Source: Desulfobacterales bacterium (GTDB lineage Bacteria > Desulfobacterota > Desulfobulbia > Desulfobulbales > BM004). Taken from it: a stretch of 34,186 nt of DNA. The DNA lies in contig JAAXQI010000033.1 of assembly GCA_012974315.1 (NCBI GenBank), positions 1 to 34,186 of the forward strand, read 5' to 3'. Below are positions 26,657-29,870 of this stretch, piece after piece (positions within the stretch are counted from its first letter, which is position 1; each line of letters starts with the position of its first letter). Made by a program: the position numbers and the translations under genes. The notes below the pieces were generated by a model. It was not told the DNA's origin. It did no database searches and worked only from the letters and a program-made list of their open reading frames with translations.

Positions 26657-27656
26657 ATGATCATCGGTGTACCTAAGGAAATAAAAGACAAAGAGTTCCG
26701 GATTGCCATTATACCAGCAGGAGTTCAAAATCTTGTTGATTCAGGCAATACGGTTATCATTGAATCTGGAGCCGGGCTTGGAAGCTCCATACTCGATGAA
26801 GAGTTCGCAGGTGCAGGTGCCAGGATTGTAAAGGATGCAGCAACTGTATTCAATGAAGCGAAAATGATTATGAAGGTCAAGGAGCCTTTACTGCAGGAAT
26901 ATGGGTATATGCGTGAAGGCTTGATCCTTTTTACCTATCTGCACCTCGCACCACTGCCGGAACTGACCCAGGTCCTGCTGGACAAGCAGGTATCGGCAAT
27001 TGCCTATGAGACTGTGAGGCAGAATGATGGCTACCTGCCCCTTCTTGCCCCAATGAGTGCAGTAGCTGGCCGCATGTCTATCCAGGTAGGGGCGCATTTC
27101 CTTGAAAAGGAAGCTGGCGGCAGGGGAGTGCTGCTAGGCGGGGTTGACGACCTGCCTGGCTGAATTTAAAAACTTTTTTCAAGGGAAAATATACACCCGC
27201 ATCGCGAACAAAGAAAATATTGAAGAAGAAATCAGCCGGGCAGATCTGGTTATCGGGGCTGTTCTTGTTCCTGGTGCAACCGCACCGAAGTTAATTACAA
27301 GGGAGATGCTTTCACTTATGCAAAAAGGGGCGGTAATTGTTGATGTAGCAATTGACCAGGGAGGCTGCGTTGAAACCGCAAGACCGACCACTCACTCTGA
27401 CCCTGTTTATGAAGTTGATGGAATAATACATTACTGTGTGACTAACATGCCCGGGGCAGTACCAAGAACATCAACCTTTGCCCTGACAAATGTAACGCTG
27501 CCATATGCGCTTGATATAGCCAATAACGGGCTTCACGGGGCAATTCAGAAAGACCCGGCCCTTAAAAAAGGCATTAATACCTATGGGGGAAAGCTTACAA
27601 ACAGGGAAGTTGCGGTAGCGCAGGGAAAGGAATTTACAGACATAGATGAACTGTAA
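26657..27656 (+). pseudogene. ald: Alanine dehydrogenase, disrupted by internal deletion and frameshift
   Basis: Two consecutive ORFs match the two ends of Ald: [27 protein letters not shown]...[10 protein letters not shown], then [38 protein letters not shown]...[10 protein letters not shown]. The expected PGV..(V)VIGGGTxGxNAA..VTVLDIN segment between them is absent. Confidence 0.85.
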
Positions 27657-27914: not shown

Positions 27915-28406
27915 TTACCAGCCCCAGAGAAGACTGCGCTTTACCCAGCCGGTCAAACCATCCTCATGCCTTACCTTGACCCAACCGTCTCCCCGTTTCA
28001 GGGTCTGGAACACAACTCCATATTCAGCCTTACCGACAACTTTATATTTTGTTCCTGGGCCGCTGCGGATATTTATGCGGGCTTTACTGTTTTTATTTAT
28101 TTTAACAATGAGATGAGGTTTTTTAGAAACCAAATCCTTGTAAATCCAGCCAATATCACCTTCAAAATCCGACACCTGAATCCAGTTGTCTTTATAGCTG
28201 CGAATCCTTAGCGGAAAGCCTTTACCCAACTCCCATATAATAGGGTACTGGGTTGAGGGCCCTTTGCGCAGATTCACCTTTTCTCCTGCCACACTGACCA
28301 TGACAAAACCTGCCGCCCCGGAACAAACAGGCCATAACAACATAAGCAGGATCAGTGCAAGCCATCCAGCCCTCTTCAAAGTCCCGTGTCTTTTGTCAGC
28401 ACCCAT
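27915..28406 (-). CDS. Exported protein with two bacterial SH3 domains
   Basis: 163-aa ORF with signal-like N-terminus and two SH3b-like units: VNLRKGPSTQYPIIWELGKGFPLRIRSYKDNWIQV and INIRSGPGTKYKVVGKAEYGVVFQTLKRGDGWVKV. Confidence 0.9.
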   Translation of the reverse strand: MGADKRHGTLKRAGWLALILLMLLWPVCSGAAGFVMVSVAGEKVNLRKGPSTQYPIIWELGKGFPLRIRSYKDNWIQVSDFEGDIGWIYKDLVSKKPHLIVKINKNSKARINIRSGPGTKYKVVGKAEYGVVFQTLKRGDGWVKVRHEDGLTGWVKRSLLWGW

Positions 28407-28489: not shown

Positions 28490-29383
28490 TCATTTCAATG
28501 CGACCGGTATCCTGGGGCCCGATTTACTGCCGATTGGAAGACCGGCAATTTCAAGGGTAATTGCATCAAACCTACACGCCTTGTCCATGCACTTCAGACA
28601 GGAAATACATTCTGCATTTTCCGGGGATTCATTGAATTTCACGCCCATGGGACAGACAGAGTGGCACTCCCCGCACTTGGTGCAATTTTCTTCAACAAGT
28701 CTGAGCTTTACCAGCTTAAGTTTTTTGAACAACGAATAAAATGCCCCTAGCGGGCAAGCTGTCCGGCAAAATGGCCTGCTGGCCAGAATGGACCAGATTA
28801 TAAAACCCACTAAAATGAACAGTTTATTATAAAAAATCGGACCAATAGTCCGTCCAAGTTCAGGCTGCAGCAGAAGCATAGGCAGGCCGGCTTCCAGGGT
28901 CCCGGCAGGACAGAAATACTTGCAGTACCATGGTTCTCCATACCCGAAAGCATCAACAGCTGTCAGGGGCAGGAGAATTACAAAGAAGATCAAAAAGAAA
29001 TATTTAATGTAGTTGAGTTTCTGCGGGATATTAAATTTTCTGGAGGGAATTTTATGGAGCAATTCCTGGATCAATCCGAAAGGACAGGCCCAGCCGCAAA
29101 TAAGCCGCCCGAAAACTCCGCCCAGAATCCCCATGGTCCCGATAACATACAGGCCAAAAAAATTCTGTCCGTTTTCCAGGGCAACCCGGATACCAGCCAT
29201 CATCTGCTGTAAAGAACCTATGGGGCAATATGTTGTTGCAGCAGGGCAGGAATAACAGTTCAAGCCGGGTGAGCAGACAACCTTTAACGGCCCCTGATAG
29301 ATGGTGCGTGTAAAAGGAAAAGACCATGAGCCATTCACCAGTAAGGCCATAATGGTCTGTATCCACTTTCTAATAACTTCCAT
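28490..29383 (-). CDS. NapH-like membrane polyferredoxin / 4Fe-4S binding protein
   Basis: 297-aa ORF. Multiple TM segments, CGWACPFGLIQELLHKIPSRK, CRTACPLGAFYSLF, and ferredoxin motifs CTKCGECHSVCPMGV and CISCLKCMDKAC. Confidence 0.92.
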   Translation of the reverse strand: MEVIRKWIQTIMALLVNGSWSFPFTRTIYQGPLKVVCSPGLNCYSCPAATTYCPIGSLQQMMAGIRVALENGQNFFGLYVIGTMGILGGVFGRLICGWACPFGLIQELLHKIPSRKFNIPQKLNYIKYFFLIFFVILLPLTAVDAFGYGEPWYCKYFCPAGTLEAGLPMLLLQPELGRTIGPIFYNKLFILVGFIIWSILASRPFCRTACPLGAFYSLFKKLKLVKLRLVEENCTKCGECHSVCPMGVKFNESPENAECISCLKCMDKACRFDAITLEIAGLPIGSKSGPRIPVALK

Positions 29384-29547
29384 TATCCTATACCAATGCA
29401 GCTTAAGCAGACCTGGACTGCCTGCGCAAGAACCCTGCCCACTTCACCGTTCATAATGCCAATCATCCCCATAACTAGAAAAAACAGGATGGTGATAAAC
29501 GGAGCAACCCTTATGTTTTTAGTCTTTTCTTCTTTCTTCCTGGCCAT
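29383..29547 (-). CDS. CxxC-containing single-TM microprotein (CD1871A-like)
   Basis: Hand-translated minus-strand ORF absent from the track: MARKKEEKTKNIRVAPFITILFFLVMGMIGIMNGEVGRVLAQAVQVCLSCIGIG*. Its stop overlaps the start of the polyferredoxin gene (TAATG), and it starts 11 nt after the thiamine-binding gene. The CLSCIGIG tail matches my recollection of CD1871A-family CxxC proteins. Confidence 0.85.
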   Translation of the reverse strand: MARKKEEKTKNIRVAPFITILFFLVMGMIGIMNGEVGRVLAQAVQVCLSCIGIG

Positions 29548-29558
29548 TTCTTCAGAAC

Positions 29559-29870
29559 CTATTGCTGCATCTTTGCAAGCCGGTTAACTACTGATGCCTT
29601 TTTAGCACCGATTGAAACCTTTTTATCCCTTCGATCATCCAGGCTTATCTGGGTCACAACCCTATTGACGCCTTTAGAAAACGGGCTCTCGGATAATTGA
29701 GCAGCCAGCATTAAGAGATCCTCTGTGTTGCCTTCAATAATTGTACCCATGTCTGTCAGCTCGTAGGAAAAACCTGATTTCTCAAGAACTTTCTGAATAT
29801 CAGCTACATATTCACCTACGCTGGGAGAATTTGTGCCCAACGGTATAATTGTAAGGTGCATTAAAGCCAT
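29559..29870 (-). CDS. MTH1187-family thiamine-binding protein (DUF77/YqgV-like)
   Basis: 103-aa ORF: MHLTIIPLGTNSPSVGEYVADIQKVLEKSGFSYELTDMGTIIEGNTEDLL...GVNRVVTQISLDDRRDK, typical of the MTH1187/YkoF-like fold. Confidence 0.9.
   Translation of the reverse strand: MALMHLTIIPLGTNSPSVGEYVADIQKVLEKSGFSYELTDMGTIIEGNTEDLLMLAAQLSESPFSKGVNRVVTQISLDDRRDKKVSIGAKKASVVNRLAKMQQ

Follow-up and report, generated by a model that had tools for sequence, protein, structure and literature searches.

We identified a conserved gene pair in which a membrane microprotein of the CD1871A family, 54 residues long in the stretch of DNA analyzed here (34,186 nucleotides of contig JAAXQI010000033.1 from a Desulfobacterales bacterium, hereafter the window), is encoded immediately upstream of a membrane polyferredoxin, and in 52 distinct genes of its relatives the first Cys codon of the C-terminal CxxC motif is an in-frame UGA. 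The UGA-containing forms comprise a probable selenoprotein family, as judged from their sequences, with many members of about 42–60 residues. We moderately favor the interpretation that the two proteins together carry electrons across the membrane to periplasmic thiols, as a two-part conduit.

The pair belongs to a three-gene unit on the minus strand, and all three open reading frames are present in the order and at the coordinates reported by an earlier, sequence-only reading. The gene encoding an MTH1187-type (UPF0045/YkoF-like) thiamine-binding family protein of 103 aa (29559..29870) is followed, after the 11-nt gap described in that reading (29548–29558), by the microprotein gene (29383..29547), whose product falls below the 60-aa limit of the ORF listing, and then by the gene for the 297-aa NapH-like polyferredoxin (28490..29383). 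The latter two genes overlap within a TAATG sequence (29381..29385, minus strand), where the microprotein stop codon TAA (29385–29383) shares one base with the polyferredoxin ATG (29383–29381), and in most relatives the two genes likewise overlap or are separated by just a few bases. Directly downstream of the polyferredoxin, on the same strand, lies a gene for a secreted bacterial SH3-domain protein (27915..28406; PF06347, TIGR04211), which occupies the same position in several relatives and whose membership of the module is unproven. The Rfam search of the window detected neither a TPP riboswitch nor any other RNA, and the promoter/terminator scan returned signals no more frequent than expected by chance. 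On the plus strand, an alanine-dehydrogenase-like frame recognized by eye (26657–27656) is split into overlapping ORFs (26657–27163 and 27144–27656), reflecting a frameshift that could be either real or an assembly error.

The microprotein scored 36 bits against NF040920 (CD1871A family; curated cut-off 32), which bears out the assignment that the sequence-only reading had proposed to check with a CD1871A/CxxC HMM. The single hydrophobic segment and the CLSCIGIG end noticed in that reading were both recovered, the former as one predicted transmembrane (TM) helix at codons 14–32 (29452..29508, minus strand) from hydropathy and the positive-inside count, and the latter as a CxxC motif at C47/C50 (codons 47–50, TGC TTA AGC TGC, 29398..29409, minus strand). 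Coding-type conservation at 29383–29547, the lack of which would have counted against the gene, is evident: relative to five same-genus relatives, substitutions numbered 61, 34, and 126 at codon positions 1, 2, and 3, and this preponderance of third-position changes indicates that the 54-aa ORF is coding. Six Lys/Arg residues precede the TM helix and one follows it, a charge pattern that predicts an N-in, C-out orientation and places the CxxC outside, so that a periplasmic location of the motif is likely. A redox thiol role for it is rather probable and is backed by the Cys/Sec exchange and the TlpA-type neighbors described below. NF040920 is a named but uncharacterized family whose name and description make no mention of selenocysteine, in contrast with the forms reported here; one of its members, in Peptoclostridium acidaminophilum, likewise adjoins a "4Fe-4S binding protein". 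The PDB sequence search with the microprotein yielded nothing convincing, and a search of the open-access literature found no paper on CD1871A or its motif. In one genome (G203), which holds a Sec-form microprotein beside a polyferredoxin, we also observed a second, Cys-form copy (L069:4515-4679) with no polyferredoxin recognized within the 6.5 kb examined.

The polyferredoxin scored 77.9 bits against Fer4_5 (PF12801; gathering score 22) and 63.3 bits against the NapH/MauN model (TIGR02163; cut-off 213). Since the latter cut-off was missed by far, we regard it as a separate Fer4_5 family, and the names given to the three genes in the sequence-only reading are supported by profile scores with the exception of NapH membership itself. 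With NapH/MauN it shares two CX3CP motifs, membrane helices, and a C-terminal 2x[4Fe-4S]-type ferredoxin domain, and it differs from them by an additional conserved N-terminal C-x5-C-x2-C-x6-C group (C37/C43/C46/C53), by C158, and by its pairing with the microprotein. The Cys residues were invariant or nearly so in the alignment of relatives, including those of the ferredoxin domain (residues 234–265), with C96/C100 and C206/C210 of the CX3CP motifs being invariant. A topology sketch derived from hydropathy would place the N-terminal group and C158 on the outer side, the same as the microprotein CxxC, and the CX3CP and ferredoxin Cys residues inside or at the inner face. The AlphaFold (AF2) model was mediocre (pLDDT 69.5), falling below 50 at residues 16–51, which cover part of the outer Cys region; a structure search with it returned no PDB match and nothing at E<0.001, and the PDB sequence search with the polyferredoxin matched ferredoxin domains only. 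In two polyferredoxins from Cloacimonadota (L154 and L170), C37 and C46 are both lost while C43 and C53 are kept, and this joint loss would fit a paired function of C37 and C46.

The absence of microprotein homologs next to NapH-like genes elsewhere had been named as what would refute the pairing, and the comparison of loci gave the opposite result. A search of 58 relatives with the polyferredoxin only found orthologs in almost all of them, and in 30 of 30 loci chosen by the polyferredoxin alone the microprotein gene adjoins the polyferredoxin start, either with a 1-base overlap or within five bases. The microprotein was also close upstream in 143 of 148 loci with a polyferredoxin, but many of these were found via the microprotein, so that the former figure is the less biased one. 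A profile search located the polyferredoxin in 126 of 395 genomes of the phylum. Long open frames suggested a fusion of both proteins in one frame, which was dropped on reading the sequences. In several lineages (L085, L105, and others) the polyferredoxin gene is followed by rph- and rdgB-like genes (RNase PH and HAM1-type pyrophosphatase, recognized by eye), probably as housekeeping synteny, and a Sir2-type deacetylase-like ORF, also identified by eye, directly follows it in several Sec-form loci (L141:3932, L148, L150).

The third member of the unit is less constant. The MTH1187-type protein of the window belongs to the thiamine-binding UPF0045 family by score (TIGR00106, 89.1 bits, cut-off 54.7; PF01910, 98.5 bits, cut-off 24.9), and it matches solved members of that family such as PDB 1lxn. 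Its gene was found upstream of the pair in 50 of 218 loci (a redundant set), which makes it an optional partner, and it never occurred in the same locus as a TlpA neighbor. Both observations render it unlikely, from gene context, to be a core subunit of a complex; it may instead be a cytoplasmic regulator or accessory. Among titles and abstracts, no paper on MTH1187 in a redox pair was found.

In the window, codon 47 of the microprotein is TGC, and the copy is therefore a Cys form. The UGA forms derive mostly from metagenome-assembled genomes (MAGs) of Deltaproteobacteria, together with MAGs labeled Cloacimonadota, Eisenbacteria, and Poribacteria. Searching the family in the 395 genomes of the phylum revealed matches carrying one in-frame TGA in precisely the position of the first CxxC Cys, which keep the tail LSCIGVG and a normal stop; within a single family of 24 genomes, 12 copies carry TGA and six Cys. 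Scanning about 85,000 species genomes for the DNA pattern of U-L-S-C-I-G-x-G gave 32 hits, 31 of them real and one (L162) rejected as a chance hit, and about 20 further Sec loci were picked by the polyferredoxin only. Polyferredoxin loci with no NF040920 hit are in large part Sec forms, with tail variants such as UMSC, ULAC, ULHC, UTYC, ULDC, and UPSC, the others having Cys forms or, in some cases, no recognized microprotein. When 14 Sec forms were compared with NF040920, all fell below the cut-off (9.8–31 bits, one with no reported hit), and hence they probably escape current annotation. In addition, several long Sec-form microproteins of about 80–137 aa (L177:4294-4704, L185, L198, L182) contain additional membrane segments N-terminal to the usual TM helix and the ULSCIGVG tail. 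The polyferredoxin tree requires five Cys/Sec label changes, at least three of them forced by well-supported branches, which indicates more than one exchange event; one locus (L169) is a separate Sec case within a Cys clade, and some Cys forms of the Sec-rich family f31 look like reversions on this tree.

The Sec forms matched none of the known selenoprotein models. TsoA (LULAXC motif, NF045695), a listed selenoprotein with a similar-looking motif name, was ruled out as the same family, as its spacing is U-x3-C compared with U-x2-C in the microprotein and no hit was obtained at E<=1. The microprotein Sec form is missing from the 119 selenoprotein families tabulated in a 2026 catalogue, in the portion available to us (PMC13188914), and the new deep-Sep families appear different from it (PMC12013277). 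No report of the Sec form was found in the open-access literature, and one may exist elsewhere. As the Cys family already has a database name it is not new; the Sec form is the new part.

The sequence around the in-frame UGA argues against a sequencing error, a pseudogene mutation, or a true stop. Beginning 11–12 nt 3′ of the UGA is a hairpin of roughly seven base pairs capped by a GGGT loop; its 3′ arm is located mainly past the stop codon, where pairing cannot be attributed to conservation of the microprotein. Hairpins of at least 6 bp at a suitable distance were detected in 45 of 52 Sec genes, compared with 17 of 106 Cys genes and with a mean of 11.7 of the 52 Sec genes when the 3′ part was shuffled. 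In alignments of 31 and 50 sequences, 83% and 80% of the cells were paired, respectively, and in both, pairing and covariation exceeded every one of 500 shuffles as well as the slid controls. Other hairpin placements were seen in L140, L154, L166, and L170, and by this measure a few loci (e.g., L174, L181, and L192) have no clear stem. The machinery for Sec insertion was nearly always present: at least one of tRNA-Sec and SelB was found in 33 of the 34 Sec-carrier genomes checked. Among the TGA genomes of the 24-genome family, each was detected in 11 of 12, the further Sec carriers having tRNA-Sec in 21 of 22 and SelB in 16 of 22. Neither was found in three genomes of that family with Cys forms only (G382, G288, G446), and out of 14 controls only E. 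coli and M. jannaschii were positive. The genome of the window encodes SelB (358 bits), while its 84%-complete assembly yielded no tRNA-Sec above the cut-off. Nearly all named Sec carriers being MAGs, and one of them (G456) showing neither tRNA-Sec nor SelB, would agree with an artifact or a genuine stop, but the same codon recurs as UGA in 52 different genes, the conserved C-terminus carries on past it, and the hairpin statistics and the almost constant presence of the machinery argue in the same direction. We thus consider that explanation highly improbable, and insertion of Sec at the UGA in the cell almost certain on these genomic grounds.

The gene neighborhoods also suggest what the dyad may react with. 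In 24 loci (two of them, L211 and L224, with doubtful motifs) a TlpA-type CxxC redoxin is encoded within 4 kb of the pair and on its strand, compared with 2 loci where it is on the opposite one; most loci have no TlpA neighbor. In the loci L056, L059, L061, L092, and L096, which are of the same type as that of the window, TlpA stands directly upstream of the microprotein, in the place of MTH1187; in Cloacimonadota it directly follows the polyferredoxin; and in the clostridial P. acidaminophilum the NCBI annotation reads TlpA, CD1871A, and 4Fe-4S, a single divergent gene separating TlpA from the other two. Other neighbors include a rhodanese, MauE, and a c554 cytochrome in L141, and a redoxin-TPR protein and a c7 cytochrome in L156. 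The upstream redoxin-fold proteins of f31 and of L149/L156 have no Cys pair and hence were not counted as thiol proteins. Secreted redoxin-TPR proteins upstream of the microprotein in L160, L149, L156, and L062 have lost both motif Cys residues (e.g., ATWSGRS), and a sensor or binding protein is possible for these.

The job proposed for the pair, supplying reductant to periplasmic TlpA-type thioredoxins, is that of DsbD/CcdA (PF02683), to which it bears no homology, Fe-S proteins standing here in place of a thiol relay; PF02683 had no hit in the three window proteins. Under a permissive threshold, DsbD_TM was absent from 53 of 126 genomes with the module and from 19 of 269 others (p=6e-16, a value that ignores kinship among related, hence not independent, genomes), whereas counting strong hits only (E<1e-30) it was absent from 96 of 126 and 183 of 269 (p=0.12, not significant). 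The anticorrelation is therefore suggestive, and replacement of DsbD/CcdA as a strict rule was rejected, since the outcome changes with the threshold and both systems occur together in many genomes. Among the 58 relatives, ResB was present in 55 and DsbD_TM in 34.

In the conduit that we propose, electrons would enter the cytoplasmic two-cluster ferredoxin domain of the polyferredoxin and pass via the CX3CP cluster(s) at the membrane to the N-terminal group of Cys residues, which is predicted to lie on the outer side. From there the microprotein's outward C-terminal dyad, CxxC or UxxC, would be reduced, presumably by direct contact, and would pass reducing equivalents on to periplasmic TlpA-type thioredoxins, so that Fe-S chemistry would accomplish what DsbD/CcdA otherwise does by thiol exchange. 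Such a flow through the polyferredoxin to TlpA, with the topology, cluster content, direction, and substrate it implies, seems to us somewhat better than an even proposition. Sec ligates metals in known enzymes, and the dyad might accordingly be a ligand completing a metal site (Fe-S or another kind) in the polyferredoxin on the outer face; the complex would then be an oxidoreductase for quinol or cytochrome and not a thiol reductase. The odd number of predicted outer Cys residues (C37, C43, C46, C53, C158) and the multihaem cytochrome genes near the pair in L141 and L156 would fit such a site; TlpA-type neighbors favor thiol transfer instead, and a UxxC dyad usually has its Sec in a redox-active role according to the 2026 catalogue (PMC13188914), which leaves the ligand role doubtful, at perhaps one chance in a few. 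More unlikely still is that the microprotein, being short, with a single TM helix and a tight 1:1 gene pairing, serves as an assembly or stability subunit resembling the small single-TM subunits of respiratory complexes, its CxxC acting in insertion or cluster delivery. It is the C-terminal dyad and not the TM helix that is most constrained, and its repeated Cys/Sec exchange favors chemistry over scaffolding.

These observations add a probable selenoprotein family beyond the 119 families of the 2026 catalogue, as far as its accessible part extends (PMC13188914), and point to the CxxC as the redox-active site of an uncharacterized small-protein family. The proposed thiol conduit also offers a testable answer to how periplasmic thiols could be reduced in anaerobes that have cytochrome c maturation genes and no clear DsbD/CcdA. 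With roughly even chances, the pair would represent a further kind of transmembrane thiol reductant, in which an Fe-S-driven polyferredoxin and a CxxC/UxxC microprotein of ~50 aa supply reductant to the periplasmic thioredoxins of anaerobes; its Sec form, widespread and as yet unlisted, may rank with the smallest selenoproteins.
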